Part shown: positions 1 through 62,020 of the stretch, piece after piece
Position numbering within the stretch: the stretch's first letter is position 1
Layout: every line of letters begins with the position of its first letter
Assembly: GCF_029227915.1 (NCBI RefSeq)
Contig: NC_079875.1
Location: 12,461,001-12,525,000, forward strand
From: Hydractinia symbiolongicarpus
Taxonomy: Eukaryota > Cnidaria > Hydrozoa > Anthoathecata > Hydractiniidae
Direction of reading: 5' to 3'
Length of the DNA stretch: 64,000 nucleotides
Program-made: the position numbers and the translations under genes
The notes under the pieces: generated by a model
Told to the model about the DNA's origin: nothing
Database searches by the model: none
The model's input: the letters and a program-made list of their open reading frames with translations, nothing else

Positions 1-67
1 CCGTGCCTTAAAAAGGTTTCACAGATTGAAGAAATGAATAGTAATTGCATTCATTTTTATACCTTAG

Positions 68-3000
68 CACCAACTGAATCGCCGATGAATCTTACAGTAG
101 TGAGGTACTTACACAATAGCCTTTCAATACAGTGGAGACCAATACCAGCATATGCATTGAACGGAGAACTCATCGGTTATAAGGTACTATATAAGCCGAT
201 GGATACTCACGAAAAGGCCACAAGGTATTTAAGACTAGATGTTGCACCATGGCAGACATATGCGAAGTTAAATATTTTGTTACCTAATTCAAAGTACATG
301 ATACATGTGCTAGGTATTAACGCATACGGGGATGGCATTGGAGCATCAGTTACTGCCAGTAAGTTTTCGTTTAAACTTTCCTATGGCAGACACTACGTAT
401 TTTTTTCTCCTAATAAGATCGTGAAGGAATTATATTGACTAAATTTTTAAAACTGATTACTTTAGAAACTTGTAAATGTCCAGAAGTTATCTACAGTAAC
501 TATTACATAACTAAGCCATATACAACTCGTCTAAGAATGTTTTTTGATGGAATATTTCCCACAGTTATAAGAGATATGTTCACATTTGCTTGTGGGTTTT
601 GTCCTGATGCCAACCAGAACACAACTACTGTTGACTTGACGTCAAATGGTAAATATGAATATGCCAGTAAATCAACGCTAGAGAGAGTTGTGGAAGATAT
701 TGATGATTTTACGCAATTAAGTTTCCCACTTTCAGCAAGTGTGAAAGCCAAAGATTCGATGGACATGGTTTACGTACCTATATTGAAATATCCGGGTTCT
801 TTATTTATTATTCGCCAGTACGACATACATGAACACGTGATGCACGTTGTGGTACAAATTCTTCAACTATGGCCCCTGTTTGTGATAAATTTTATGTTGA
901 TCGTGTTTGTGGGAGCTGCCATTTGGCTTTTGGTGAGTTTTCACAGTTATGTTGTTAATTTTCAGAATGTGATTAAAGTTGAGCAACAACATTAAAAAAG
1001 TCGTATTTATTTCATACTTTTCAGGATGTAACAGGTAGTGGAAAAAATCATTTTTCCTTAAACAAATGGGATGGTATAAGAGAGGGTTGGTACTATGCCT
1101 ATGTTACACAAACTACCATAGGGTATGTCTGCGTGAATCTTTTTTGTTTGCTACTTTATTTTTGACACCATTCTCGTTGCCGTGGCGTCGTGGTAGTATT
1201 AGGTACAAAATGCGACACTTGAATACTCGCTTTCTTAACAGTTATTTTTAAGAAAAGCTTTCTTTTCTAGAACGTTCTGAAAATGTTTGCAAGAGATGTT
1301 GTGCCAGTTGGTTGTTAATGTGTAGCGGAAGGGGTAAAATGGCGCATTATGAAGGCAACTCAATTAAGAAAAATAAAAATAGAAAAGCGAAGAGTGTTTT
1401 ATTGATCAGTGTATTGTGGTGCAAGATTATATTACCACCACAAGGAACAAAATAATATTTACGTTACCCTTTGCGGCCTTAACCAATGTTTTTCTGGTGA
1501 TATTGACACACAAGTGTGTGTTTTTGTTTAGATATGGTGACTTTACCCCCAAGAGGTTTCTTTCGAGGTGTTTTGCGATCGGGTGGATGTTTCTAAGCAT
1601 TATTATGTCATCAGTGTTGTTAGTAGGCGCACTTACCACAGCTTTTACCACTTCTGCGTTGGAGGAGGTACATACCATATATGGAAGGAAGGTAATTTTT
1701 TCTCTCAAAGCTTGTTAAAAATTTTAGGATATAAAAGTGGTAAACTGGGCGCTTATAAAAAACGAAAGACAATGGAAAATGGAGCACTAAGGTAGAGTGT
1801 CACTTTTTTTAAACTTTATTTTTTAGATTGCTGCGTTGTCTGGCTCTTTTGAAGAAAAGTTAGCTACGTTGAGAAATGGAAAGATTAACAAAAGTACGGT
1901 CAATTATTCTATTTATAAACTCATGCCTGCTAAAGTATTATGCCATATGCCTTATTATATATTAATAAATTATATATTTTTTGCATGGAGGAAATGCAGT
2001 GTTAATGCCGGCAAATCAATTATTGAAATTTTTAAGGGTGGGTGAGTGATAGGAAATCAATGTAAATAGTCGTAGATCTACATTGTTCTAGGTGTTGTTT
2101 TTGCATAACAAACATTTCAAAAGTCGTTTAAACCAAAATAAGGGTGGGGCATGGCTTTTTGCCCAACCCTTTGTCTTCCCCGGATTGTGTCTTTGTATTT
2201 GTATCTATGAATACTACCGGTTAATTCTTATTCTATTTAAACATTCAAATATACTACGACTTTATTCAGGAACAAAAACGAAAAAAACAAAAACAAAAAC
2301 AATTTGATAATAAAAAATGAGAGTATTTAATCTGCCTCCCTAAAATACTTCCTCGAAAACTAGCATCCACTTTCCAAGTCGGCTTATAAGAATTAAAATA
2401 AATAATCTATGAACTAAAAACCGATTAAAATAACCTTTTTATTTTCTAGATAAAACTTATTCAACAGTATCATCTTTGGTTAATTCACTTGTTAACCATG
2501 AAGTCGATGGTATTCTATTAGATGCTTATACTTCAGGCTCATACAAATCCTTTTTAAAACAAGCTGGTGTTCAAGAAAAGAGCTTAGTGGAATTTCCAAG
2601 AACTTATGGTGTTGTATTATCTGGTGGCCTAGCACGAGTAAATGAGGAAGTCCGTGATTATGTAGTTGCAAATGAAGACAAAATATTAAAAGTTCTGGAA
2701 ATGTATACTACGAAACTTAACGTAAGTTCTCTTCTTTTATGTCAAATCAAAATACGTAATGATTAATGAATTATCCACTAACGCCAGTGTCGTCTGACAC
2801 GAGTTATAGAAATACAGGGCAAAGTGTATTATTGCAAAAGTAAACACTTTAAACATAAACAGATACTGGATGATGTGGAATCGATTATCAAATATTATTC
2901 AGTTGAGCTTGGCTGAGTTGAATATCATTAAAGCAAGACTAAATAAATTCGGTATCCAATTTCACTGAATCCAATATATGATTTATAATTCTCCCAAGAA

Positions 3001-4322
3001 AAGAAAAAAAGATTACTGTTTGTTAAACAAGTCTTTCACAACAAAGCTTAACAATGAAACATTTGACATATCAACAACATTATTTTTTACCGCCGTTCTC
3101 CTTAATTGAGTTTATTTCGGAATTATAGAATTGTTTCTCCTTGGAGTCTATAAAAAGATGAAGGATTGTTAAATATTCGATATCGAATATCTAAAAATAA
3201 CCGACAGAGCAATTTGCTAACCGGTGAATGATAATAACATATATAACATACGTTGTAATGGCACTATAATTGCTAATACGTACCTTTATTTTCTATTTAT
3301 TCCAGCCAAAAGAAGCGAAACCTATCAAATCCTTATTCGATCCTCACTCTGAGTTTTTGAAACGAACACTTGTCATCTTATCGTGTTTATTGTTCCTTTT
3401 TCTGATGTTTGGTTGTTTTATTTGGTTTTGTTTCTTAAGAAAAAGAGGTGGTAACTTCAAAATAGAACCAGAAGGTATGCATAATATATTTTTGCGTTTT
3501 AGTAGACAAGTTAAATAACAGACGCATCTTAATTTTTTGACTAAGTTGTGTAACAGTTCTTTTATTATAGAAATTCCCGCTTGGAACAGGCATACAAAAC
3601 ACAAGTATTTTAAGAGTTGTAAGCAAAAACTATAAGACTAGGTGCAAGACAGTGTGAAATCTATAGACAACGGTCAGCTGCAACAAGGTTGATCTAAAAT
3701 ATATGGCATTTGTTATTTGTAGCTAGAAAGTGTAGCATCACACTGTTTTGGCCTTGAAACGGACAATATGCAGCTATGATTACGGAGGCTAGGAGAAGGC
3801 TAACCCTTAAAAAATCAACAGGAATTAATAAAAACATATCTGGTTTACTATTTAGGCAAGAATTAGTTCGTGTTTTCTTAAAACGCGTGTCAGACCAATG
3901 ACATGTATTATCAAATAAAGAGAAGAGGTAATCATCCTCGTAGAGTTTCGTTCCTGTATAAGTCTTACTTTTTGTTCCTTTTAATTTTTAAGCATTGTTT
4001 CAACTTTTCGTCAAGCTAAAAATACAGTCTCTTCTCCGTATTTTTAGAACCAAACGAATTAGAGAATTTGAAGACATCAACAAATCATTTTATAAAAGAT
4101 TTTTACACTTCATTTACCAACAAGGTTAGACAAGTGTACCAACGACATGAGCTAGAGAGGATTAAATTACGGTTTGATCGTGGTGCAAGTAGCCTGCGTA
4201 ACGTAAACACTTTTTCACCAAACAAGCGGTATAAAACAAAAACAAAGACCTCTGATCGTAATGTATCCATCAATGGGAAAATAGAACTCAAGTTAGACGA
4301 AATCAAATACACAGCATGTTGA
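68..4322 (+). CDS. FN3-bearing ionotropic-glutamate-receptor-like channel with K+ selectivity filter (5' partial)
   Basis: Eight exons: 68-358, 466-932, 1025-1122, 1532-1691, 1827-1893, 2450-2721, 3306-3474, 4048-4322. All junctions are GT-AG and in phase, giving 598 residues and a stop at 4320-4322; earlier exons lie off the window. Order in the partial protein: an FN3 domain (about 1-97); a ligand-binding S1-like half (about 98-230); M1 (about 231-252); a pore helix and the filter TTIGYGD (282-288); the next helix M3 (about 292-322); an S2-like half with a periplasmic-binding-protein pattern (GRKIAALSGSFEEKLA, later VDGILLDAYTSG); M4 (about 471-497); and a basic cytoplasmic tail of about 95 residues. 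S1-M1-pore-M3-S2-M4 is the iGluR topology, whereas the filter is that of K+ channels, as in bacterial GluR0 and the rotifer AvGluR1. At the place of the amino-acid-binding Arg (PLTxTxxRE in animal iGluRs) the sequence reads PLSASVKAKD, so the ligand may not be glutamate. An intron splits the first Gly codon of the filter. Inferred role: ligand-gated K+ conductance at the plasma membrane. Confidence 0.88.
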
Positions 4323-4770: not shown

Positions 4771-5478
4771 TTATGCGTTTTCAGTCTTTGTTGATAATTT
4801 TTCACTTTGTCTTCGGAGCCGCAATCTGATACCTCTAAACACACGCAAAGCTGTTCGATCACTTGCCACTTGTCGTCTTAATATGTTTGCTTGTCTCGTA
4901 GTTGCCACAAGCCTGCAGGCGAATCGTCTGATAATAATTCTGATGCGTGTTCTTAAGCTTCTGACCAAATTGGCTAGCCTTCTGAGAGCCCTGTTGACTA
5001 CTCTAAGTCTGTCTTCCGTCCCTTCGGTTGCTGTACCTAAAACAAATTCAGATGGTATTTTTAGAACGGCCATAAAATATTAAAAATTATGCAAATTAGC
5101 AACCCCAAATGTGTTGCTTACTATCAACTGAAATGTATATGCAAGATTAATAAGTACTTACTGGCCAAAAATAAATTAGTTGTTCTTATCACTCGATTCA
5201 ATGTTCCTAGAGCCTGATCAATGTTTTCAACAGTAGGGGCTAGCGGAACGGCTGGGACATTGGTGCAGTTAAGTGGAGCAGTGGTAGGAATGATAGATGC
5301 TGTAGTTTCTGCAGTTGTTGATACATCTTGTGAAAATGTTCCTATTCAAAGAACAAAAAAAAAATGAAAAGTGTACAGTCATAGATCTTATCCGATTGTG
5401 TACGTTATTAAGTAAGTACGTACCTGCTATGAAAGAAAATACAACAATCAAAACACATGATACAGCTTTAGAAGCCAT
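4771..5478 (-). CDS. Secreted arginine-rich protein, family copy 1 (unrecognised)
   Basis: Three exons on the minus strand: 5424-5478, 5162-5341, 4771-5036; phases 1 and 1; 166 aa. Exon 1 codes for a signal peptide beginning MASKAVSCVLIVVFSFIAG. Exon 2 gives a Thr-rich stretch and then a conserved core, LNCTNVP through IDQALG..NRVIR. Exon 3 gives a very basic, probably helical tail starting TATEGTEDRLRV with about 22 Arg in 88 residues and hardly any Lys. Two Cys remain in the mature part (LNC and RRFAC), enough for one disulfide. No domain is recognised. The layout (signal, neutral spacer, strongly cationic C-terminus) is seen in some cnidarian antimicrobial precursors, but that is only an analogy; an extracellular polyanion-binding protein is equally possible. 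Introns, phases and core are shared with the copies at 8858, 11417 and 13974. The gene is divergent to the 8858 copy. Confidence 0.82.
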
Positions 5479-8857: not shown

Positions 8858-9728
8858 ATGGCGTATAAACTTGTAGCATGTATTTTGGCGGTTGCATTTG
8901 CATTTATACCAGGTAAATTATATGAAAATTGACATTGTTAGAGAGCAATTACTTTTCAATCGAATTTTAGAAAAACATATTTAACATATTTCTTCAACAG
9001 GAACAATTGCACAAGATGTATCAACAACTATGGAACCTATGATGTATACAAAGCCCATGGATTCTCAACTCAACTGCACCAACATTCCCAATGTCCCACA
9101 AAGGCCCACCGCAGATGATATTGATCAAGCTGTAGTAGCCTCTAATAGAGTGATCAGAGCTACTATTTTGTTTTTGTCTAGTAAGTAGATATTGTCTTAC
9201 TTTGAACATTTTACACAATAAATGAATAATAAATGAAGTTATTTATCTTGATAAAATCATTATTAATTTCGGAGAGTGGTTTTAAAGCCAATTATTTTGC
9301 TGCATCATTTTTTAATTGCTACTGTTACTGTTTTTTCAAGTTTAAATAGAAAGGTCTTTTAATTTCAAAGTCTTTTGTAATGAAAAAATTCCTTTGTTAT
9401 TCAGTAAAAGTTATTCCAGTTAATGTTTCATTGGGTAAAGTTAAGGAAATTATTTCAATCTTAATTTTCAGGCAACACAACAGAAGGAGTGCGGTTGAGA
9501 GTTAGGACAATAAACAGAGTTCTCGCTCTTCTTACTGATTTACTACAAAGTTTAATCAGGCGAATTAGAATTGTGAACAGGCGACTTAATTGTGGACTGG
9601 TAACAACTCTGGCACAAGCTACTCGCTTGGAGGCTATTAATGACAGAGACACAAGATCTGTTCGTTCTCTCAGAGATTTAAGACGGAGGCTTCGAGAATT
9701 GAGAGAAAGGTTACAGAAGCTAAACTGA
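8858..9728 (+). CDS. Secreted arginine-rich protein, family copy 2 (unrecognised)
   Basis: Exons 8858-8912, 9001-9180, 9472-9728; phases 1 and 1; 163 aa. The signal peptide begins MAYKLVACILAVAFAFIP. The mature part begins TIAQDVSTTMEP, carries the family core LNCTNIPNVP..IDQAVVASNRVIRATILFL, then SNTTEGVRLRV with an N-glycosylation sequon, and an Arg-rich tail rich in LxxL and RIRIVNRR patterns that could form an amphipathic helix or coiled coil. Exon 1 has the same length (55 coding bases) and exon 2 nearly the same in all four copies. Compared with the minus-strand copies it has a Met-containing spacer (MEPMMYTKPMDS) in place of AETTASIIPTTAP and ends in RLQKLN. The plus-strand copies thus form one subtype and the minus-strand copies another. 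Function unknown. Confidence 0.82.
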
Positions 9729-11416: not shown

Positions 11417-12125
11417 TTATGCGCTTTCAGTCTTCGATGATAATTTCTCACTTAGTCTTTGGAGTCGCAATCTGATACCTTTAAATACACGCAAAGCTGT
11501 TCGATCACTTGCTACTTGTCGTCTTAATCTGCTGGTTTGTCTCGTAGTTGCCACAAGCCTGCAGGCGAATCGTCTGATAATAATTCTAATGCGAGTTCTT
11601 AAGCTTCTGACCAAATTGGCTAGCCTTCTGAGAGCCCTGGTGACTACTCTAAGTCTGTCTTCTGTCCCTTCGGTTTCTGTACCTATAAAAAATCAGAACA
11701 GCTACAAACCATGAAAAATTAAAACGTTTAGCACAAAAGGTCAAATGTGTTGGCTACTATCAATTGAGATGTATATGTAAGATTAATGAGTACTTACTGG
11801 CCAAAAATAAATTAGTTGCTCTTATCACACGATTTGACGCTCCTAGAGCTTGATCAATGTCTTCAACAGTAGGGGCTTGTGGAACAACGGGGACATTGGT
11901 GCAATTAAGTGGAGCGGTCGTAGGAATGATAGATGCTGTAGTTTCTGCAGTTGTTAATACATCTTGTGAAAATGTCCCTATGTAACAAACGAAAAGAAAT
12001 GTAAAGGTGTGCTTCGAAAGAATAGCCAAAAATAAACAAAGATTGTTTAAGATATTAAAAATGCGAATACCTGCTATAAAGGAAAATACCACAATCAAAA
12101 CACGTGTAACGACCTTAGAAGCCAT
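11417..12125 (-). CDS. Secreted arginine-rich protein, family copy 3 (unrecognised)
   Basis: Exons 12071-12125, 11798-11977, 11417-11682 on the minus strand; phases 1 and 1; 166 aa, exactly the exon lengths of the 4771-5478 gene. Signal peptide MASKVVTRVLIVVFSFIAG; spacer AETTASIIPTTAP; core LNCTNVPVVP..IDQALGASNRVIRATNLFLA; tail beginning TETEGTEDRLRVV and continuing with RIRIIIRRFACRLVATTRQ unchanged from copy 1. Differences from copy 1 are scattered substitutions with no frame change, which suggests both are under purifying selection. The gene lies downstream of and opposite to the decayed channel copy and is divergent to the 13974 gene. Function unknown. Confidence 0.82.
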
Positions 12126-13973: not shown

Positions 13974-15074
13974 ATGGCGTGTAAAGTTGTGGCGTGTACT
14001 TTGGTGGTTTTCTTTTCTTTTATAGCAGGTAAATTATTTGAAAACTGACATTGTTAGAGAATAATTAACTTTTCAATCAATATAAGCAATAAATCAATAA
14101 AAACCTTGATTTATATACATTTGGCATGCTTCTTCAACAGGAACGATTGCACAAGATGTATCAACAACTATGGAACCTACGAAAATGCCCATGGATTCTA
14201 AACTCAACTGCACAAACATTCCTAATGTTCCACGAAGGCCCACCACAGATGGCATTGATCAAGCTGTAGTAGCCTCTAACAGAGTGATCAGAGCTACTAT
14301 TTTGTTTTTGTCTAGTAAGTACACATTGTCTCTTTTTAAACATTTTGCAAAATGAATGAATTATAAGTGAAGTTGTTTATCTTTATTATAATGATTGCTA
14401 CATGTCTTTGAACGTATAAACATACAATTTTGTAATTGTAAGAAGCGTTATAATCGCACCTATATCCATAGTATTACCACCCTCCAAAAAACTTTATTAT
14501 CTCATGCTGATAGTTGGGCAAGGATTCACGAAATAACGATGCGGACAAACTTTTGTAGAATACTCCATCGACTATTAGTTTTTCAGAAAAAATAAGGAAG
14601 CTTGATCAAATCATTTTTTAGTTGGGAGAGAGTTTCTTGATATGAAATTATAGAACCAATTATTTTGCTGCCCCATTTTTTATTTACTTATGTCATTGTT
14701 CTTTCCTCTTTATATAGAAAGGCCTTTTAATTCTAAGTCATTTATAATTAAGAAATTACTTTGTTAATCAGTAGAAGTCTTTAATGTTTCATCAGGTCAT
14801 CAAAATTTTTTTTTTAGGCAACACAACAGAAGGAGTGCGGTTGAGAGTTAGAGCAATAAACAGAGCTCTGGCTCTTCTTACTGATTTACTACAAAGTTTA
14901 ATCAGGCGTATTAGAATTGTGAACAGGCGACTTAATTGTGGACTGGTACAAACTCTGGCGCAAGCAACTCGCTTAGAGGCTATTAATGACAGAGACAGAA
15001 GATCTGTCCGCTCTCTCAAAGATCTAAGAACAAGACTTCGAGAATTAAAAGAAAGGTTACGGAAGCTGAACTAA
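13974..15074 (+). CDS. Secreted arginine-rich protein, family copy 4 (unrecognised)
   Basis: Exons 13974-14028, 14141-14314, 14818-15074; phases 1 and 1; 161 aa. Signal peptide begins MACKVVACTLVVFFSFIA; the mature part begins TIAQDVSTTMEPTKMPMDS, two codons shorter than copy 2. Core LNCTNIPNVPRRPT..IDQAVVASNRVIRATILFLS; then SNTTEGVRLRV with a sequon; then an Arg-rich tail (about 19 Arg in 84 residues) with LTDLLQSLIRRIRIVNRR, ending RLRKLN. The tail has regularly spaced Leu and Arg, suggesting an amphipathic helix. The differences from copy 2 are mostly conservative (K/R, A/V). Function unknown; see copy 1 for alternatives. Confidence 0.82.
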
Positions 15075-22162: not shown

Positions 22163-25100
22163 TCAGTTTGGACAAGCACCGTTGTCAATTGAAATATCAT
22201 CAATTGCACGATCTGCCAATTTGCCCACAGCAATTGCATAGAAACGAACCTAAAGACAGATGTAAATTCTAAAGATATTGAGATGTCCTCACTTAACTGA
22301 CGGTAATGATTGGATTTGAGGTAATTTAACGAAAATAAATAAGTAAAAAACAAACAAAATAAATATCGAATAATATATGAAGAGATTTATACCTCGTAAG
22401 CAACATCTGGAGAAGAGGTCAAATTGATTTGTGTTTGGTGCCATTTATCATTAGGCAAACTTGAGTTTCTTGTAAAAAGAACAACTTCAATTTCCCTAAT
22501 AATTTGTACCACCCAAAATGAACCCCACTTAATCGGAGCTGCGGATGTTTCATTCATTTGTAACCAAAATGTCAAACATCCAGCGCCATTAACTGGTGGT
22601 AAGTTTGGCATAGCAAAATAGGATTCAGAAGAAGAATATTTTGTTGTTGTATCAGGTGGGCCAGACGATGATTCAAAATATACGTAGTATCCTGAAGAGT
22701 TACCTAGAGGAATGAAGTAAGTTATATCTCACTGTGATGTACGAATAATAAACTGTTATCAATTTTTATTTTCATTAATAATTTACTTTTTAACCAGGAT
22801 AGCTTTTTCAGCTCCTTATTGTACTGCTATCGACGAAGGGGGCTTAATGCATTTCAAGCTTTCTTTTTGAACTCCCAAAATGGTACAAACACAGCAATGA
22901 ATTAACTACACAACTGCCTAAAATATCAGTTCTAAACGCTAATAAGAATGATCGATTCACTGGCATTACTCAGTCGGGGTTTGAACCCACAACCTTCTGC
23001 GCTGAAAGCGAGTGTCCAGCCGCAAGGATGTATAACAACGTACCTAATGTATGATCATAGGATGGACCAGTATGAGGAGAAGTAGTAGGGCCGTTGTTTA
23101 TTCTCCATCTATTGTCATCTCTGCCGGGAAATCGAAAAAAACAGCTTGTCGCTCTGTCTGGGGCATTTTCAAAAGAACATGCTAAATAAAAAAAACTACA
23201 ACACTTAATAAACAAACAAAGGAAATATAAATAACTTTATGATCAAAAGATCTGGAGAAAATAACACAAGCTAACATGAAAGCGATGTAATAACATTGTC
23301 TAAGCAAGAACAATGACACTGATGAAACCATTTAAATGTGAAATTGCGTCGGACAAATTCGTAGGAAATCATTCAAATTTTAAAAAGTTCTAAATACATA
23401 TAATCATAAATTTTTATTTGCCTACGTTTACTACTTTTGTGGAACAAAAAACTGTATTGTTCTTTTTAGTAAGTTTAATAAAAGTTTAATAAAATCTAAA
23501 TGTTGGACAGGACTAAAGGTAGTACGGCGTATGTTAAGTACCCTTAAAAATTAATGCATTCTCTACCTGCGCAACCTTGTGTTGCGCATGGCTTTTTGTA
23601 AGATTCAAGAAGCCCCATTCCACTACCAATATCACATTCATTGCCACCAAAGAGAGGACTTGGATTAGTACATGTTCTGCTTCTTATGTTTGTACCAGTA
23701 CCACAAGTAGCTGAACAAGCGGTTATAGACCATCTTGACCAGCCACCATGAACTAAAAGCATAAAAGGTAAAATAGCATGTGATGTTTACCGTAAATAAA
23801 CGATAGAATTTATAGCATAAAAAAGGACAAGAAATTCGCTCCAATTTTGAAGACTTTGATTATTATCTAATTTCGCAATATTTTGACAGCGCGGTCGATG
23901 TATTAAATATCTATGTATTCAACCGCATTAACTGGGAGTTTTGGTCAAAATAATTTCTTTTTTTTAATAATTTTTAGTGCTTAAACATTAGAAATTTAAG
24001 TGCTGAAGATTGCTTTCTGAAGGACAGCTAGACACAATCAGGACATTTTCTTAAGCGTTCAACGAAATTCCATTATGCTAAGGTGTCGTAACCATTACTT
24101 ATATTGGATGGCGTGCAAAGTGAAGAAAGCCAATTTAAAAAAAAATGAAAAAGCATTCGAAAAGCATAGGTATTCAAATTAACCAGATTACTCGAATTCC
24201 ACTATGCCATGACAAAGGATGACCTACGCTATACAAATTGTTTAACTATTGCATCCCATGCGATATGTTGACTATTATCGCAAGTTTTCTTTATATTGTT
24301 AAAATAGTTTTCATTAAGATATCAAAGAAAAATAAAAGGGAGTCTAACTAGAAATTCAAGTTATTAACTATGATTTCCCTTGTTATTTGTTAGAACATTT
24401 GTGTTTTAAAAGGAAATATATTGCTATGTATGCTGATATCTCCTAAAAATAGCGTCACTACTATTGCAAAACAGGTAAAGTTTGAGTTTTTTATTGCTGC
24501 TCAAAAGTAAGCGCAACGGTAATTTAACGTCATATAGATGGATTGTTGTGAACTCGTATTAAAGCTTACTTTTCATATTATAAGTTTTCCCCCGCCTATC
24601 CAGAAATGGAAACTACACTTTTTAGTTTGTAAAATTAGAAAACCTGGACATCTTGGGCATTGAGCAGTGTCTGTTTCATTAAGTGCTCTCTTATTGTTCA
24701 GATCTAAACACATGCTGCCATTTCCAATTGGTGCAGGATGGTTGCACGTTCTGTTTCTTTCATATGTTTCATTACCACAAGTTTGCGGACAGCTGGTGAT
24801 ATTAAACCATTCGCTCCAACCACCTTGGCCTAAGAATATATTAGAACGTAAATATATGTCAATTCTCATACTAATTACATAGTATAATTGGAAAGTACAC
24901 TTACGGTAACACGGTGTTGTACCACAATATCTCTTTTCTTCTTCTTCTAGCCCCATTGTACCGTTAGTTCGAGTGCAATTACCCCCTCCAAACTCAGGTG
25001 GAGGATTGTGGCATTCTCTTAAACGGAACTGGGTGCCATTGTCGCATGTTTTAGAACATTGCGTCCAATTCGACCATTGAGACCAGTTACCATGAACTAA

Positions 25101-28100
25101 GAAATAATTTATGATAATAACTCAAAATGTGCCGCTAAATCTTGTCTTTTTATTGCTATCTGTGCGTTTAAATTTTTTCACAGTACCTTTACACAGTACC
25201 ATTTTTATTTCGTAACATTGCATACACAAACCTTGAAGAAAACCCAACAGACACAGGATAATTTAAAATCGCATATGAAATTGCCTTTAATTGTAGAATA
25301 TTATGCTACAAAAGGATAGATTATGCAACATCCTTGACTTGCACTTACCAGGACAAGGAATGATCACTGGACACGGTCCGATCATTGTCGCGCTACCAGA
25401 ACAGTTGTCGCCGTTATTAGTTGCTTCGGGCATAGTACAATTTCTGGATCTTGATCTTGTACCACCTGGACCACAATCAACCGAACACGCACCCCAACTT
25501 TCCCATAGAGCCCAATTTCCATGCACTGTAGATAAGAGAATATAACTGTACTATTATGTTTTCGTGCTGTAATCGTACTAAGGCTTAGCCTATGGGTGGA
25601 GGTTCGGGGGTTGGGGTTGCGGTGGAGGAAAATGTACAAGCACCAAAACGCCTTTTATGATTGGTAGTAAGTCGAAAAATTACGCAATTTCTGGGACAAT
25701 AACTGTAACATGACAATTAAGTATCATGTCTCAAATGATGACTATCTGCAATAACTTTTGTTGACTTTGATAGTAACACTGAGAATATTGAATTGTTATA
25801 TTGATATTATAAATGGTATTGTAATAATATAGCCGTGCTCCAATTTAATGAGAAGCCGATTAGACTTAGATCAGAAAAATTTGATGCATGTTAGTCCCCA
25901 CGTCGACGCACTTTAAATATAGTGTTGGCAGACCATAAGTGCAATCTACTGACTGCTAACTGACTTGTACGGCAAGCAAGTAGGTTAGAGCAATGCTATG
26001 CGTAACTTTGGCGGTAATGTAACTTAGTTACAGTCGGATGAAAGAGACGGCCAGCCATTAGATTGGGCTTCTCAAGGACATTAAACATCCCGTTACGTAC
26101 ATGTTTTTAATAAGATGTTGTGTTTATTTACCTTTGTATTACTTTGGATACAAATTTCACTTAGTCAAAACATGTAAAAACTGCAAAATGGCGTAAATGA
26201 GCTTAATTTTAAAATAGGATTATTGTCCTAGGGCGATAATGGGTATCAGTAACAAAGGACGTTAACTATTTGAGCTATTATGTACGTACAAGCACATTAA
26301 TTTTGAACTTTCTTAAAATAAGCAATAACATGTCAAGAAATACAAAGAACTAGTCGTTAGTCTGTGGAAAAATCCACGGGTTCGCCCGTCGCAGCTAAGC
26401 TACCATTTTGCGTGACAGACAGACGGACGGACGGACAGACGTATACGGGCATTATAATATAAATGATAATACTATTTATAATGGACGTTGCATACCACCT
26501 GCTTGAAGTTCCAGGTATATTTAGTTACCAGTTCTAATTTTGTCAACGAAAGTACGTCGGTTAAGGCACCCCGTGGCCTGAGTAAAATTAAACACAAAAT
26601 TTCTCTCGTCTTTTCTGTTTCTGCGAGAAATGAGAAATTGGAATAAATTGTTTTGATATCTAGGATGTCACACTTAGACAAATTAGTTTTACAAAAGTAT
26701 ACCAACCAGGACCAGTGCATTGTCCAGCAACCAATGTACCGTCATCAATTGCAATATCAGAATTGTATCCAAATCCTTTAACTGCTTTAAAGAGGAACTA
26801 AATGGAAAAAAAATGTTAACTAATTGTGAGAATGATATTACAGTTGAGTTAAATCTGTCAAAAAGGATGTGTGTCTGTGAAGAATTTTTAGAAATATCTT
26901 AGACAGCATAAATGTTATCCTAATATTGTTTTCTGTTCGGGGATTCGATTTGAGAATCTAATTGTCGCGTAAAAAATCTATTTTTACGAGATATTGTTAT
27001 ATATTTGTTATATCTTTTATCTTATATATTATATATTACATATTAAGTTCTTACAGTCCTGTAGTCGGATAATGGTGTAGCTCCCATAGCTGCAATTTGA
27101 TAATTGTACAAGCTTCATATTGACAGAGAAAGTCGCACCCAAAAAAAAGAATATACAACAGTTTCTATTAGATTACTTACTGACATGTTTGTACCACCAA
27201 CAACAACATCAACATCAATGTTAATATTCATCCAATGTGATGCATTGTTTGTCAGCACTCCGTAGTTTTCCCAAAGAAGGGTTTGCGAATATGTAAGGCC
27301 ATTGACCAAATAAACATGCAATGAACCCATATAGCGTGGATAACGAGTGTACATTGATACGTAAAATGAAAAGCAATACTGACTTTGCATAGGAACAAAC
27401 ATGAAGGTGGCTAGATAAGCCGCATGACCCTTAGCTCGATAGCTAGCCTCGTAATAAGCGAAATGCCCACAACCTTAAAACAAAATATGAATGTCATGTT
27501 TGGTGCTACTAGAAATAAGTAAACACAATTATGACTAAGTAGGGAGAAGCAGAAGAAGAGAAATAAAAGGAAGAAGAAGAACTTACATGTTTGAGTAGGG
27601 TCACGCTACGTCTATTTTCTTCAAAATTTATTTCTGATATCGTTTTTAATATTGATTTTACCTATTTCTATTCTTCTCAGAGTTTTTTGCTTAGTTTTAC
27701 AGTCTATATACTTACATTATATGAAATACTGGCAATACCTGATGGAAAAGTATGATCTACATCTGGTCCAGTACTTGGCGAAGGAGTGTAGGTGTCAATC
27801 ACCCATTGTCCAGTTTGATCTGATAGCCAGCACGGAGTTTCAAAATTGCAATCGAACTGACTGACTTTAATTGGACATTCTGAAAGGCGACAACCACCAT
27901 TACAATTCTCTGTATTTGTTAAGTTGCCTTGGCAATTGTTATTTGAACACGTTCTCGCTTGAGTTCGGTACCCGACACCACAGGTTCCTTGGCAAGTTGT
28001 CCATCTGGACCAAGACGATAAAACACCAATTTCTAATGTGCGTCAGTAAAAATAAGTGATTATTCAATACAAGTGTTTTAAGTACATGTTTGTTTAAAGA

Positions 28101-47438: not shown

Positions 47439-48137
47439 TTATTCTTCAACCACATGTTCAACTGAAAGTCTGACAAGAAATTTAAAAGCTTCTTGTATAC
47501 CATCATTCTCTTGTGCAGAAACATCAAAGTGTGGGTAATCGCCTAACACTCCCTTTTCTTGCACGTGCGTTATGGCTTGTTTTAAATCGTTCTTATTCCC
47601 TAAAATGATGATGGGAATTTTCACCTTTTTTATTTTATGAATATCAGATATTAAATCGATCAATTTTATATAGCTTTGTCTGCTGTCCTTTGAGTATACC
47701 AATACAAATGCGTCAGTTTCCACAATCTTTTGTTTATATCTTTCTACAGACCGTCTTCGGAACAACGTATCAGCAATGGACAGATTTAGTTCGTACTGTC
47801 TTACTTTTTCTTTCTTATTCTGCGGCGCTAAAAACACGCTACTTTCAAATTCCTCGTTTTCATTTTTGATTTTGTTTGTTCCAAGCATGCTATCTGCGAC
47901 ATATCTGAAACATATTGAAGACTTGCCAACGTTGTGATCTCCAAGCATTAATATTTTTATTTTACCACAACATTCAATACCCATTCCAATCGATCCATTA
48001 CTGGAACCTCTTGAGCTGCGTCGTGAAGATCTTCTTCTTTCACGCATCTTGTTAAATAATGTCCCGACTACCATTTTTACTTTTTCTATACAATCAAGGA
48101 CAATCAAGGAGCACATGTAATATACTAGTGATGACAT
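47439..48137 (-). CDS. Atypical Ras-like small GTPase
   Basis: Single open frame of 232 codons on the minus strand, no introns. P-loop GDHNVGKSS at 66-74, G4 motif GNKNDL at 180-185, and a G5-like DVSAQ at about 205-209 fit a Ras-superfamily GTPase. The G3 motif, normally DTAGQE, is here DTLFRRR (123-129), so the Gly and Gln used for hydrolysis are missing. The N-terminal extension carries a Ser/Arg-rich stretch (RERRRSSRRSSRGSSNGS, 32-49), and there is no C-terminal CAAX box. Long basic extension, altered G3 and no lipid motif recall RGK proteins (Rad/Gem/Rem), but a diverged Ras-like protein is as likely. The start is uncertain: Met1, Met8, Met22 and Met31 are all in frame. An intronless frame among intron-rich neighbours suggests a retrocopy. 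It is intact. Confidence 0.8.
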   Translation of the reverse strand: MSSLVYYMCSLIVLDCIEKVKMVVGTLFNKMRERRRSSRRSSRGSSNGSIGMGIECCGKIKILMLGDHNVGKSSICFRYVADSMLGTNKIKNENEEFESSVFLAPQNKKEKVRQYELNLSIADTLFRRRSVERYKQKIVETDAFVLVYSKDSRQSYIKLIDLISDIHKIKKVKIPIIILGNKNDLKQAITHVQEKGVLGDYPHFDVSAQENDGIQEAFKFLVRLSVEHVVEE

Positions 48138-54987: not shown

Positions 54988-55359
54988 CTACTTCTTCGTT
55001 AAACAACGTTCAATAACTGGATAGTAACACACGTTCTTGCAATTGCCTGCATAACAAAACTGAAAGCATGTAGGAGTAACTTCAAAACGACACGATGTAG
55101 ATAATCCACCACTTGTTCCTGCGTATCCTCCGTTCCATTTGGGAGCTGGTACTCGTCTTACCCGGAGTCTTTTTCTTTTAGCAATACGAAGTTTATATCT
55201 TGTTCGACGAAATTTCAGTCTATTACTGACCCGCCGTCTCTCGGCAAAATTTTGTTTCCTCAAGACGAGTCCATTCCTGCGACGGTGACCGTTTACGTCA
55301 AATAATATAAAAATGACGAACAACGCAAGTAGAAAGAAAAAACATCTATATCGCAACAT
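54988..55359 (-). CDS. Small secreted basic six-cysteine protein
   Basis: Single open frame of 123 aa on the minus strand. Residues 1-24 are a clear signal peptide (core FFFLLALFVIFILF). Residues about 25-72 form a very basic stretch with many Arg/Lys clusters (HRRRN, ERRR, KFRRTRYKLR, KRKRLRVRR), which also look like sites for basic-residue cleavage. After a Gly/Ser-rich linker the last 34 residues carry six Cys spaced C-x7-C-x3-C-x4-C-x3-C-x7-C (CRFEVTPTC, CYAGNC, VCYYPVIERC), allowing three disulfides. This is a precursor-like layout: signal, basic propeptide or tail, compact disulfide domain. Families such as ShK or defensin do not fit the spacing. A secreted peptide for defence, signalling or matrix is possible, but no function is assigned. 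Confidence 0.68.
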   Translation of the reverse strand: MLRYRCFFFLLALFVIFILFDVNGHRRRNGLVLRKQNFAERRRVSNRLKFRRTRYKLRIAKRKRLRVRRVPAPKWNGGYAGTSGGLSTSCRFEVTPTCFQFCYAGNCKNVCYYPVIERCLTKK

Positions 55360-57967
55360 TTCTCTCGGATTATAAAATGTCGAACCTTTTTATTGCTTAT
55401 TCTTTTCGATCATTTAAACTTTAAAAAAAAAACCAAAAAAGGAAAAAAACAACTGACTAAGCTTGCATTGATATGACTTGTTGACATGTACTCTCTGAAT
55501 ATATCACCTAGATGAAGAATTGTCTAACTATAATAGTTAAATATTACAATGTACATTCAACAAGACGGCGATAAAATCTTTAATGAAGATAAAAATAAAC
55601 TAAGATTCAGAAAATCGAAGGCCACTGTTATACGTTCTTCAAAATGTTTGACACGAAGGATGTGGGAGTCTGCAAATTTATTTCAACAATGTCGTAAAGA
55701 ATGCTTCAAGTGACGAAACAAATCAATTTCATATAAAAGAGCTTGAAAAGATGTCTAGGAATTTGTACATCTTTTTCAAAATATCTTAATTGGTTTTTAA
55801 GAATTTGGACTAAGAAGTTCCATTAATTTGTATGACATCATGCACTCGCTCTGGGTGTTGTACTTACAGTTTTGACGTTCATAGTGCTTTGAACATTCTA
55901 TATAAATTTTAATATTTAGTTACTATAATTATGAACTAATTACTTATTAATTTGAATTACCCTCTTATTTCTTTTTAATTAAAGCTTACCTCCCGCGAAA
56001 AAAACAAGTTGGGCTCATATAAATGATCTTTGAAATTTTAAAAAAAAAATCTTTATTGGTTCTCCAGATATGTATCCTAAAGTTGCGCTAATTATGCGAA
56101 CTTTGACGTCATGAACTAATAAACCTTTAGATGGGCAGCAAACACATTCGCTTCACGCACAGTCCAAAACATATATATTTATTATACTCTTCATTATAAT
56201 ATGTCAAGATTATAGTTATGTTACAGTAAGTATCCTGCCTATGTCTTTAAGTTGAACTTGTGCAATTTTGCGCCCATCTTACGCCCAATCGCACGACATA
56301 CTTCGCCGTCAGAATGGAAAGAAATTTATTTATAAAACCTTTGCAATTTACTGTTGTTTAATATGTTGTGCAAAACACTTTTTTTCCAATCTTTATTTGC
56401 ACTTTCTTTTCTAATAGAGAATCTGAATGTCTCAAATGTCAAGGAAATTAATTAAAACCAACGAGAATAATTTTTCTAACAAATTCCTATTTTTAAATTT
56501 AGTGAGATAAACGTAACCAATGTCATAGGAATCAGTTTTAATATAAAATGTTTCGTATATTTACACTTTACTATAAGAGATATGCACCATGAAGATACAA
56601 CGATGCACTATATAAGGATTTCCAATGCCTATATTTTTAATATCTACAATACCATCTGTGTCACGTTGGTTTCTTTTTGTCGAAGATGGTCATTGATACA
56701 ATCTTTTAATACTTCCAATACATCATCATCACAAATAATTGTTTTGCTTGAAATTTGAAAATTCTAGTACAGTCGCTAAATTTAATGATGATCCATCCAT
56801 AAAATACTGACAACGGAATTTACCATTTTCATGGTGACTTTAGATCCTAAAGAGTAATCAAGTAATGGTCCTTAAGAATTACATTGTCACAAAAGATTAT
56901 TCGGGAAAAGAAATAACACAATATTTCGAAAATTACAAGTTAATTCCTAAGTTATCCAAGGAAATTTTTTGGATCGTTTAACGTCTATGTGTTTACAATT
57001 AAGTAAAAATTTACACACACAGAAAAAAAAATGAAAAAAGAGAAAAGAATTATAGTATATCAGCCGTGGTAATACACTTCAATGAGCTTTCATTATTACA
57101 TAATGACAGGTTTAAGTAACGAACTGTTAAGCTAGAAAAAGTTTTAACTGAAATACGAAGTTATTCACGCAGAGAGCAATGGATCTTATATTAACGTTGT
57201 GCACTGTTTTTAAGATAATTAATATTTCGTGAAGGAAAAGAAGTTTATTGCCTCTATGAAATATGAATTAAAAGACCTTTTGTAATAACAGAATGGCAAA
57301 ACGATGAATATGCTACGTTAGGTGAAATTTGTAAAACTCAATTTAGAGCCATTTTCGAAAAACCGTTATCGACGCATGAAATCGCTGCCCATATTTTTTT
57401 TGTGTGAAGTTGAATTTTGGTGCGCAGCTTTGGTGCTATATAATCTACTGTTTTCGCAAGGTAAAAACAACCGTACTTTTTCAATAAAAGAGATCATTTT
57501 TACTCAGTCGACTATCTATTTTTTAGATTATTATATCCATCGGTCGCTAAGCAGGAACGGGTTTTTAAGGTAGTGACTAGTTTGTATCGGCGAAAGTAAA
57601 ACAGTGGAGAAAGTTTACGTGCGCAGGTTGTTATTGAATTGAAATATTAGCAACGGAAAAGTTGCCTTGCAGTCACAGCGGTGTGCCATTGTACTACTGT
57701 GCGAGCATTTCTATCTTTCCCCGTTAATCATGCAGAAAATAGCAGAGAATTCTTGGCACTGAAGAAAACGATTGCGGGTAGGCTTAGATCTAACTTCCTC
57801 AAATAATGAAGAGGCAAGAAAAGCATCAGTTACAAGCAAACATGTCATGAGGTGGCTTGCTTAGAAATCTTCTGAAATAGTTGCTTAATTGTTATGGAAC
57901 TTTGTATATTTTCCCAAATTTTGACTTCCCAGTTAAAATCGTTGCGGATTATTAATCTACAAGACAT
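55360..57967. other. Intergenic stretch
   Basis: No exon supported. 57322-57573 and a short frame near 57700-57775 (with ENSREFLALKKTI before a possible donor) look weakly coding but have no recognisable family or partners. Confidence 0.35.
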
Positions 57968-58725: not shown

Positions 58726-61700
58726 TTACAACAACTGTGATAAACGATAATATATATGTATGTACTATATATACTATATATACGATATAATATATTTTCA
58801 GCAAAACAAATAAATACTATACTTATATTGCACACTTACTTTTATGCATGGCTCTCCTAGGGGCCAGTCACGCTTGCAATGATGTAGCAGTTCGTTTAAC
58901 GAATTGCATTCCTGCATTTTTGAAAGGACGAACTTTCTTTTTATACTAAAATGGGACACAAAGTCCCCTTTCAACATGGATAATACGTACAATTGACCGT
59001 TGGATGGATTTTCACTTTTGCGAATTAAGAAAGCCCCAGATTTGTTTTCGGGATGTTTAAGATAGCGAATACTTTCTTCCCGAGTGATACAACCAAAATA
59101 CCATCTGAATAAGAAAAAAGTAGCGTAGTAAGGTAAATACAAAGAATGACAATAGATAATTATGAATTGCATTCAGCCTGTTACCACAATATGCTGCAAT
59201 TAAATAAACTTGAAGGATTCTTCGGGATATATTAAGAAAAAAAGAAAATAGAAAAATGAAATAGAACATATGCGATTAGATTCTTATTTTCACTACCCGC
59301 CTCTTTCTCGCCTTTTTTCTATTTATTGCCATCTCTATTTATACTTATATTTATATTTTTCCGATTCTATTTTTTATTTTTTATTTACCTTTAATGTGAC
59401 ATATAGGTTGACATATATGGTTTTATTAAAACTAGAGTACATCAGAAAGACTTTCCAATAAAATTTCAACGTTTTCCACTAGTGCAACCACTGAGAATGG
59501 ATTTCAAATGCTCTTTTAATGTTTATTGTTTTGGTCATGTATACACAACGTTTGTGGAAAAAAATGAATAACTTACCGTTCATTTTCTAAAGTCCTTACA
59601 GTCGTGGCAGCAGTCGTATCACAAGGATGGTAACCCTTTTCTGTGTTGAGAGGGATCTCGTCTAAAAGTGAGATAAATAACGATAACGCTCAATGCAAAG
59701 AAACATAGCGGAAGCCTTAACAGCTCATCAGAATAAATCTCCTAAATCGTCAAAAGGAAATGGTCTTTACAGTATACTAATCAGTGTCAAGGTCTACACA
59801 GTAAACATTACGGCCACACTAATTCCGAAAACATTCTTATATTGACTGGTAATTGACTGGCATCACCAGAATATTTGGAATGAATTTTCTTTTTCTATTG
59901 CACATCTGTGTAAAAAATTTCGGATTAACTTTTTCTTAATTAATTTTACTAAACTTAACTAGACCACAAGTGTAGCCAGTCCGACAAAACGTGCTTATGT
60001 TCTTTATCAATCCAGCATTTTCACATTTAAAATTTTCAAATCGATATGTGTTTTGGGAGTGCGTATAGATGCTAAAGTATTTTGCATATTCATAATCCGC
60101 TGAACATTTTTTTGTGCAAATATAACTCCTATAACTCCATAAAATTTTAACTGAACGTCTAATAAATTTTACGAGGAATAAGCTATACAGTGCATCAATG
60201 TAATGTTGAAGTCGCCTTAAAAATGAAATACATTCTACTGAAGGTGGAGTGTATTTCAAAACGCTCAAAGTTGGATTCTAAATTGACAAAGTAAAAGCAG
60301 CAGCAAGAAAAGGTACCTTGTAAACTTTCCATAATACGCAATAAATCAATTGCTAGTCGTGAGAAGTCGAAACATTTTTCAGATCCTTCAATCAGATTTT
60401 TACAAGGAGACGATGCGCCCGAAATGACAGTAGGTGACTTAACTTCATCAATGGAAATTTTTAATTTCCCTAGTGGGTTTCTTGATAACTTCTCCATATT
60501 TAGTTGTTGGAGGTGTGAATTAAATGTTGCAATACTGGGCGGTAAGGAAGAAAGATTTCGTAGTTTTCTTTCAACTTCCACCTTTTCAGCAATCAGTTCG
60601 AAATTGGACTTTAATTTAAAAGCCTTTATTTCATCTGTAAATTCTTTCATTTTAGTCCTATCTATGCAGCCAACACGCATTATCTCGGCTTTGAATTTTT
60701 CTGATTTTTCATCAAAATCCTTCAACATATTCTTTTCTTCTTCATTTAAAATGCTAAGATATCTTTCTATGCATTTCAGTTTTCTCATTTCCAGTTCTTG
60801 AACAAATACCTTTCTCTCACATTCGAGCTTCATCAAAGTTTTATGATATATTTCTGATAATTTTTCTAATTCAACTATTGTATCTTCAAATGTTTGAAAA
60901 TGCTTGTTTAATTCAATGCCATATTCAGTTATGCTTTTGGTGTTGTGACCTTTGTGTTCCCTGTGGACGCAATACACACACACAAACTGACTATCACATT
61001 CGATGCACACTTGCTTAGCCAGGGAGTTATGTTGACTGCATAAGGGATGAATTTCTTGTAACTTTTCGTTAAAACTAACAGTAACGAATGATTTGTTTTC
61101 ACAAGAATGTATTTTTTGGCATTTCTCACAGATCTTCGCAGCACAAATTCTGCAGAAGTAACGAACAGGCTGTTTGCAATTCTCAGTTTGTCTGCATAGG
61201 GCATTGCCTTTTCCATTTTCTTCTCTAGAAAATAATTTAGCGCATACACAAATGTAACCTAAGTATGACTCTCTTTTCTCTCATTACTAAAACAATTTGT
61301 CGTCTATTGTTGTTATATATTAGAAAAAATAACATTTGGTGCAAGGGATGGGTTTTAAAGGGAAGGGGGAATAATTTTCTTATTTTGAAAAAAACATTCT
61401 TAAAAAAATTTATTGCGTGGGCTAAGTTCACTTCTGCATCCCCCTGATCTCACGGCACTGGACTTAATTTACTTAAATATCACGGCATTATATGTTTCCG
61501 AACCAATTAAAAGGTTAGAAGAGTGGACAAAAAGCTAGTCTTACAACTGCTTAAAATGTGTAGAGTTTATCAGATAACAAATAAAAAACCAAAGTATAAA
61601 ACTGGAAATGTTAACGAGGATGTTTGAACAATAAAACTTTATTGTGTCCAAAAAATCAACATGGCGACTGCTGTTTTTTTATGATGGTAATAAGCTGACA

Positions 61701-62020
61701 AAATAGTGTAGAAACATCCAAATTTATTTAAAAAAAAAAACAATTTGCAAAAATAATACTTACACATTATTTAAAATGTCAGCAAGACAATAAGAAGTAG
61801 GTAAGTATGATGTCGTTTCGTGTTCATTTATTATTGTTTTGTTTGAACATCTAAGTGGGCAATTTAGTTCAGCACTTCCATCTTCATTAAATGACAAAAT
61901 GTCGTCTAAACAGCCGTGACAGTACGTGTGTCCACAGTTAAGATGTTTAGGCGTATTGTAAGTATCTAAGCAAATCTTGCATTCCAGCATCAGACTGATC
62001 CTGTCTGGCGACAACGCCAT
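58726..62020 (-). CDS. TRIM-type RING/B-box/coiled-coil protein with C-terminal SH2 domain
   Basis: Exons on the minus strand: 61764-62020, 60317-61224, 59577-59661, 58840-59104, 58726-58734; phases 2, 1, 2, 0; 507 aa. The ATG at 62018-62020 is the only one in frame ahead of the RING. RING: C14, C17, C29, H31, C34, C37, C54, C58 (last pair CPLRC, one residue wider than usual). B-box 1-like: C96 to C127. B-box 2: C148, H151, C159, C162, C168, C171, H176, H179. Coiled coil about 185-330. A linker with ENER leads into SH2 at 418-507: WYFGCITREES, the FLIRKSE strand with the phosphotyrosine Arg445, and VSHFSI with His468; it is closest in style to Src-type SH2. Known chemistry: RING proteins pass ubiquitin from E2 to substrate, SH2 binds phosphotyrosine. 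Inferred role: ubiquitination of tyrosine-phosphorylated targets, like Cbl but with a different build. The nine-base last exon (LL, stop) is the least certain part. Confidence 0.85.
59936..60200 (-). pseudogene. Cys-containing frame in an intron of the RING/SH2 gene
   Basis: The minus-strand frame ending at 59936 reads SYICTKKCSADYEYAKYFSI, then a short stretch, FKCENAGL and FCRTGYTCGLVKF before the stop. The cysteine pattern (five Cys) and aromatic content look like a piece of an extracellular domain, vaguely WSC- or PAN-like, not like intron DNA. No start, signal or partner exon is visible; it would break the RING/SH2 frame if included. It may be a relic of an unrelated gene. Confidence 0.25.

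Follow-up and report, generated by a model that had tools for sequence, protein, structure and literature searches.

The stretch of DNA analysed here (the window; 64,000 nucleotides, C1:12461001-12525000 of the Hydractinia symbiolongicarpus assembly) carries, on its minus strand at 62020-58726, a five-exon gene that is close to certain to have a TRIM-SH2 architecture, i.e. a TRIM-type RING, B-box and coiled-coil (RBCC) part followed by a C-terminal SH2 domain. The best explanation of this gene, to which we assign a probability of around 60%, is that it is a chimeric TRIM gene, formed by capture of exons from a tyrosine kinase gene and encoding a phosphotyrosine-directed ubiquitin ligase. The proposed ligase activity would fit both the RBCC part and the Arg and His residues kept by the SH2 domain; taken on its own, a role as a phosphotyrosine-directed ligase is somewhat more probable than not.

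Architecture of the predicted protein

The five exons give 507 codons plus a stop, with no internal stop, and join the RING, two B-boxes, coiled-coil region and SH2 domain, in that order and in phase, across four GT-AG introns. The same in-phase order had been claimed in a preliminary description made from the DNA letters, and is borne out by the 507-codon chain and by Pfam matches to the complete protein, i.e. SH2 (E=2.2e-13; 50.5 bits, cut-off 21) at residues 418-492, zf-RING_UBOX (3.5e-9; 37 bits, cut-off 25.2) at residues 14-55, and B-box (1.7e-5) at two stretches; the sole NCBIfam match was a sub-threshold one to a rad18 RING. The junctions given in that description, 60317/59661 and 59577/59104, are exact; its architecture stands, but it missed the CPLRC ending of the RING, the irregular first B-box, the shortening of the SH2 domain and the ankyrin-tailed family described below.

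The RING, two B-boxes and putative coiled-coil region occur in the order seen in TRIM/RBCC ligases, in which one or two B-boxes follow the RING; the protein differs from these ligases in its C-terminal SH2 domain and in the C-x3-C spacing of the last RING ligand pair. The nearest solved chains to the RING are those of TRIM2, TRIM32 and TRIM56 (E=1e-6 to 1.4e-5). When scored alone, B-box 2 (26.4 bits) is over the Pfam cut-off of 24.1 and B-box 1 (21.9 bits) is just under it. Favourable heptad windows, as judged by a simple count rather than a dedicated predictor, are patchy from residue 186 to about 337.

The SH2 domain covers positions 1-76 of the 77 in PF00017, with FRK, PTK6 and Src as its nearest solved structures. 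Alignment to Src, PTK6 and a Src-like kinase of the same genome (L007, see below) shows that it retains Arg425 (alpha-A2), Arg445 (beta-B5), Ser447 (beta-B7) and His468 (beta-D4), which we take to be the residues that hold phosphotyrosine; the earlier claim that the phosphotyrosine Arg and His are kept thus holds for Arg445 and His468. A single-sequence AlphaFold2 prediction for the SH2 exon (no alignment) had a predicted local distance difference test score (pLDDT) of 45.7, and the model was not used. Differing in this from Src-family kinases, the protein terminates after the SH2 domain, with no tyrosine kinase domain.

Splice joins and a linked paralogue

Scored with textbook splice-site frequencies against all sites of the minus strand, the exon 3 donor falls within the best 0.23% of the 3528 GT and the exon 4 acceptor within the best 0.88% of the 3281 AG; the stretch directly upstream of the SH2 exon is pyrimidine-rich. 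When sites in the top 10% were combined over the gap between exons 2 and 4, only 2 of 48 acceptor-donor-phase combinations bridge the phases; both use the exon 3 donor, with in-frame acceptors at 59661 and 59640. Codon usage backs exon 2 as coding (none of 2000 null stretches as high), with 2.9% and 3.4% of the null as high for exons 1 and 3, respectively. The end of the gene is its least certain part: reading through the last intron, instead of splicing to exon 5, would add VSVQYKYSIYLFC before a stop, and exon 5 had no match in the stretch of the paralogue inspected.

Stronger support for the predicted joins than either splice ranks or codon usage comes from a paralogue with the same architecture. 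It occupies C1:12547852-12554839 (loci L012 and L009) on the plus strand, some 25 kb from the window gene, with about 34 kb between the SH2 exons of the two. The paralogue has the same exon order and phases (1, 2, 0; splice sites picked by inspection), and is 78% identical to the window gene in the RING, 60% in the B-box/coiled-coil exon, 50% in exon 3 and 92% in the SH2 exon. Each of the two genes has, in addition, a near-copy about 3.6 Mb further along C1. That of the window gene matches it at 3493 of 3501 bases over the gene span, differing at 3 of 1515 coding bases, with exon 1 being 100% identical and exons 1-4 free of internal stops; that of the paralogue retains the RING, B-box/coiled-coil part and exon 3. 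The near-copies could be assembled alleles or the products of segmental duplication.

Since duplication, the window gene and the paralogue have diverged with ratios of nonsynonymous to synonymous substitution (dN/dS) below 1. By the NG86 method dN/dS is 0.114/0.459 (0.25) for the RING, 0.245/0.900 (0.27) for the B-box/coiled-coil exon, 0.275/1.494 (0.18; 23 codons) for exon 3 and 0.036/0.161 (0.22) for SH2; the YN00 values are 0.130/0.335 (0.39), 0.262/0.816 (0.32) and 0.030/0.181 (0.17) for the RING, B-box/coiled-coil exon and SH2, respectively.

It is scarcely credible that the architecture is an artefact of assembly or annotation. The near-identical family pairs on chromosome 1 do imply a complex local assembly, but the gene is present twice at 3493/3501 identical bases and its architecture recurs in the diverged paralogue. 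Such pairs, as an observation in their own right, are seen at 12.5 and 16.1, 12.89 and 16.51, 14.2 and 17.87, and 7.1 and 9.36 Mb, i.e. about 3.6 or 2.2 Mb apart, a pattern that resembles serial assembly of alleles or duplication of large blocks. The passages covered of a study of this genome (PMC10411563) describe chromosome 1 as the most likely sex chromosome of H. symbiolongicarpus.

Likely origin of the SH2 module in a Src-like kinase gene

Outside the TRIM-SH2 copies, the closest SH2 exon in the genome is at C8:29800285, in L007 (60% identity, 81.1 bits; the next match has 39.8 bits). The L007 product starts MGNC; besides the SH2 exon, the locus contains an exon matching SH3 (SH3_1, 2.4e-6) and encodes a tyrosine kinase domain that is closest to Src and to a reconstructed Src-Abl ancestor; the exon preceding the matched SH3 exon reads like the first half of an SH3 domain, with no Pfam match at 1e-3. 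The SH3 exon and the kinase domain set L007 apart from the window gene, as does the lack of a RING or B-box in the frames scanned.

The exon structures of the two genes correspond closely. The SH2 exons of L007 and the window gene (exon 4) have the same Trp start, the same CIK end and the same phases (2 in, 0 out), and the matched SH3 exon of L007 has the phases of window exon 3 (1 in, 2 out). The homology extends into the SH3 exon itself, with window exon 3, at first sight a linker without features, aligning to its end (EKGYHPCDTTAATTVRTLENE in the window gene versus QKGYIPCNYIAAVKSLEAE in L007) at a local score of 50, compared with a shuffle mean of 15 and none of 5000 shuffles as high. At the end of paralogue exon 3, the last 14 exonic and first six intron bases match the kinase at 19 of 20 positions. 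The matching boundaries and phases, together with the apparent SH3 remnant in exon 3, suggest that a TRIM gene captured a pair of adjoining kinase exons downstream of its phase-1 intron, with L007 the likely donor of the SH2 module.

The same evidence bears on whether the region instead holds two genes, one with RING and B-boxes that stops after exon 2, and a small one for SH2 that begins at an ATG lying upstream of exon 4 in the same frame. That frame does stay open as far as such an ATG; however, the acceptor at the end of the pyrimidine-rich stretch before the SH2 exon is among the top 1%, phases 1-2-0 and exon 3 recur in the paralogue (exon 3 also in its near-copy), and a single kinase gene has counterparts of exons 3 and 4 next to each other. 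We thus regard two separate genes as very improbable.

An ankyrin-tailed TRIM family on chromosome 1

The RBCC part of the window gene belongs to a large local family. In searches of the 480.9 Mb assembly (76 contigs), exon 2 gave at least 113 matches, of which 62 score at least 200 bits, all on C1, where the family copies span 4.9-18.1 and 25.8-32.2 Mb. At least 52 of the 62 copies are followed on the same strand by an ankyrin match within 15 kb, at a distance of no more than 9.3 kb; this count is a minimum, with 150 of 415 ankyrin candidates scored, and some of these matches could belong to a neighbouring gene. Six of the 10 copies with no listed ankyrin match are accounted for: the window gene, its paralogue and the near-copy of each make up four, and the other two are TRIM-B, a neighbouring gene, and its near-copy, in which tblastn finds a divergent ankyrin. 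The remaining four (5263896, 9356551, 27430525 and 32154059) are unexplained, though an ankyrin match lies close to 27430525 on the opposite strand, and 32154059 has a 19-residue ankyrin match in L026.

Among 15 family loci taken from 26-32 Mb, 14 have a strong ankyrin match (e.g. Ank_2 at 5.3e-28 in L018), the match being weak in the other (L026). The exon 2 donor is in phase 1 in the 14 of these loci inspected, as in TRIM-B and the window gene, and the ankyrin exons inspected have a TTTAG|AA acceptor which, by inspection, fits phase 1. Thus, the window gene shares with the ankyrin-tailed genes homologous RING and B-box/coiled-coil exons and the same phase-1 donor, whereas its tail is SH2 and not ankyrin. 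Ankyrin repeats are also abundant elsewhere in the genome, dozens of frames of about 175 residues on C2 (5.7-17.2 Mb) constituting a second large ankyrin family.

The SH2 tail, by contrast, appears to be confined to one small group. There are 60 SH2 matches in the genome, 13 of them on C1; four of these 13 have one of the 62 copies no more than 13 kb away, at the two SH2 loci and their two near-copies; a simple count gives five copies with SH2 downstream, a number that includes TRIM-B, which reaches the SH2 exon of the paralogue. No SH2 matches were apparent near the weaker family relatives on other contigs when these were compared by eye. A tree of 21 B-box/coiled-coil rows separates the four with SH2 from the rest by a single branch (100/99). 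Some weak SH2-like matches elsewhere on C1 (24990112, 25317771, 29143549 and 31631805), with an internal stop and near-equal scores, are perhaps pseudogene pieces in a repeat.

Some 2.6 kb downstream of a diverged relative on C3 (33% identity) there is an ankyrin match as well (C3:29042608), which suggests that in this family the ankyrin tail is older than the SH2 tail. Persistence of an ankyrin exon after the SH2 exons was considered and found no support, there being no ankyrin match at E 1e-3 in the entire window, nor in L009 downstream of the paralogue SH2.

A different role may be envisaged for such a family. The chromosome 1 TRIMs may be a fast-changing array of defence or recognition proteins with exchangeable tails, in which the SH2 domain, as a copy of the phosphotyrosine reader of a host Src-like kinase fused to a ubiquitin ligase, would serve as an integrated decoy: foreign proteins imitating the phosphotyrosine sites of the host, or exploiting them, would be bound and destroyed; we consider this speculative and distinctly unlikely.

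Factors that may limit ligase activity and phosphotyrosine binding

A number of observations weigh against the proposal of an active phosphotyrosine-directed ligase arising by exon capture. With respect to the gene structure, the acceptors of exons 2 and 5 are weak (top 28% and 11%, respectively), neither the exon 1 donor (top 6.6%) nor the exon 3 acceptor (top 7.3%) stands out, and the codon usage of exon 4 is not separable from that of non-coding DNA (18% of the null as high). The similarity of exon 3 to the kinase is weaker for the paralogue, with a score of 22 that is equalled or exceeded by 2.9% of shuffles.

With respect to catalysis, the last RING ligand pair is C-x3-C (CPLRC, 61847-61861) rather than the usual CPxC, though all eight ligands are kept, and the last Cys is followed by Ser where TRIM2 has Arg; both features may lower activity. 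Along with the irregular B-box 1, they would fit a genuine TRIM-SH2 protein with a RING that is not a ligase; the dimer would then serve as a phosphotyrosine scaffold, or compete with the parent Src-like kinase by shielding sites from it. However, CP[LV]RC is kept in all 21 family RING exons compared (the window gene and 20 further copies, near-copies included), so the unusual spacing is a property of the family and not damage, and the RING, with dN/dS of 0.25 (NG86) or 0.39 (YN00), appears constrained. On balance, an inactive RING is possible but rather unlikely.

With respect to substrate recognition, residue beta-D6 is Ser470, a position occupied by Lys in Src and by Arg in L007, and the SH2 domain is 10 residues shorter than that of L007, with gaps of 2, 4 and 4 residues located, respectively, in the loop after FLIRKSE, after beta-D and near the C-terminal BG loop. 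On the loop names that we assume for these positions, the two 4-residue gaps presumably lie near the specificity loops. Taken together, the Ser at beta-D6 and the 10 fewer residues imply that the choice of peptide by the SH2 domain has probably changed.

In addition, the SH2 exon of the near-copy of the paralogue (16.16 Mb) is frameshifted by a one-base insertion (L011:4095-4366), and its three base changes relative to its partner are the bases of the window gene. The synonymous divergence of the SH2 exons (0.16) is far under that of the B-box/coiled-coil exons (0.90), and the flanking introns have no obvious similarity by eye. The low SH2 value and the window-type bases in the frameshifted near-copy make exon-limited gene conversion between the SH2 copies likely, in which case the 92% identity would overstate the constraint on the domain.

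The beta-D6 Ser, the 10 missing residues, the frameshift in one of the four SH2 copies and the weak exon 5 acceptor would also be consistent with a real TRIM-SH2 gene with an SH2 domain that is blind to phosphotyrosine, or with a gene in decay. Against both readings, Arg445 and His468 are kept in the window gene and the paralogue alike, SH2 dN/dS between the two is 0.22 (NG86) or 0.17 (YN00), and neither the window gene nor exons 1-4 of its near-copy contain an internal stop; either possibility seems improbable.

Proposed mechanism and relationship to known proteins

For a phosphotyrosine-directed ligase formed by exon capture, the following course of events may be proposed. The ancestral gene would have encoded a RING, B-boxes and a coiled coil with a C-terminal ankyrin exon. 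The ankyrin part would have been replaced by two adjacent exons of a Src-like kinase gene, i.e. the end of SH3 and the whole SH2 exon, which would have been spliced after the phase-1 intron ending TRIM exon 2, the SH3 part then decaying into the present exon 3. Duplication of the chimeric gene would have given at least two linked genes. If the gene is expressed, the protein would, in the simplest case, act as a dimer; the coiled coil may pair in antiparallel fashion and display two SH2 domains, which would bind tyrosine-phosphorylated proteins, and the two RINGs would recruit an E2 to ubiquitinate the bound protein, so ending or redirecting its signalling. The targets probably overlap with those of the parent kinase but are altered, because the SH2 domain is shorter at three places, with the two 4-residue gaps near the specificity loops.

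In Cbl, a divergent SH2 domain lies inside a four-helix/EF-hand module, N-terminal to the RING. Like Cbl, the window protein combines a RING and an SH2-type phosphotyrosine reader in a single protein; by contrast with Cbl, its SH2 domain is Src-like, lies C-terminal to the RBCC part and can be traced to a kinase of the same genome, and no four-helix or EF-hand Cbl domains are among the 12 Pfam families matched. Thus, the job of the window protein would resemble that of Cbl, although the two are unrelated by descent. In the part of PMC3166285 covered, the role of Cbl in receptor ubiquitination is reported to rely on its SH2 and RING domains. The window protein, if translated and active, would be a second, independent link in animals between phosphotyrosine reading and a RING ligase in one polypeptide, Cbl being, to our knowledge, the other.

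SH2 domains are also tied to ubiquitination in the SOCS proteins, which recruit a cullin ligase via the SOCS box and have no RING or B-box. The window protein has SH2 and a predicted involvement in ubiquitination in common with these, but has a RING and B-boxes in place of a SOCS box, none of which is among the 12 Pfam families. Designed SH2-ligase fusions exist, and the TRIM-SH2 protein would be a natural analogue of them. Since the exons of the likely donor kinase, the gene family that received them and the phases of the introns are all visible in one genome, this would be a clean case of exon capture, one that would here have made a new signalling enzyme; Hydractinia is open to laboratory manipulation.

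A limited literature search, with most subscription journals outside its scope, found no published description of a TRIM-SH2 fusion, in agreement with the preliminary statement that no named TRIM has an SH2 domain. The main text of a survey of TRIM genes (Marin 2012, PMC3503706) has no mention of SH2, ankyrin, Hydra or Nematostella. The passages covered of PMC8195603 place SH2 among the domains at the C-terminus of TRADD-N proteins and name TRIM domains as fusion partners of TRADD-N, with no TRIM-SH2 fusion in those passages. The part covered of PMC2394772 counts 19 animal-specific partner domains for SH2 and 8 for B-box; the partners are unnamed, so these counts exclude nothing.

Coordinates and other features of the window

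Table 1. Positions in the window of the exons, domains and key residues of the TRIM-SH2 gene
Feature	Position	Strand	Description
Exon 1	61764..62020	-	Start codon and RING; residues 1-85 and two bases of codon 86; ends in phase 2
Exon 2	60317..61224	-	Both B-boxes, coiled-coil region and tail to ...ESLQ; ends in phase 1
Exon 3	59577..59661	-	Phase 1 in, 2 out; remnant, shortened, of the SH3 exon that comes last in a Src-like kinase gene
Exon 4	58840..59104	-	SH2; phase 2 in, 0 out; one base finishes codon 417, then residues 418-505
Exon 5	58726..58734	-	Two codons and stop (LL*); least certain part
RING finger	61847..61981	-	Residues 14-58; ligands C14 C17 C29 H31 C34 C37 C54 C58
B-box 1	61101..61196	-	Residues 96-127; irregular, first pair C-x5-C, last His absent
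B-box 2	60945..61040	-	Residues 148-179; full ligand set C-H-C-C-C-C-H-H
Coiled-coil region	60552..60914	-	Residues ~190-310; patchy heptad signal
SH2 Arg445	59020..59022	-	beta-B5, in FLIRKS
SH2 His468	58951..58953	-	beta-D4, in VSHFSI

A tblastn search (E up to 1) found no second TRIM in the window. Searches of viral, bacterial and archaeal contigs found no relatives of exon 2, and a search of viral contigs found none of the SH2 exon; no RNA family or tRNA was found. The five minus-strand frames downstream of the gene (41-68 residues) contain no Pfam domain; of three frames upstream, two have no Pfam match and one has a sub-threshold match (E=0.11).

Elsewhere in the window, plus-strand frames at 1-3515 open with fibronectin type III (3e-11), the three frames that follow having no Pfam match, and possibly belong to a receptor cut by the window edge. 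On the minus strand, exons with MAM and thrombospondin type 1 domains (22390-28042) are perhaps parts of one large secreted or surface protein, and a single frame of 133 residues (54991-55389), with no Pfam match, combines a hydrophobic segment close to its start with an end that contains Cys. Four alike short Arg/Leu-rich frames on alternating strands (4774-5079, 9465-9725, 11420-11692 and 14775-15071) resemble a small local gene family, and an unbroken Ras-type GTPase frame (47442-48137; Pfam Ras 3.7e-19) has an Arg/Ser-rich N-terminal extension.

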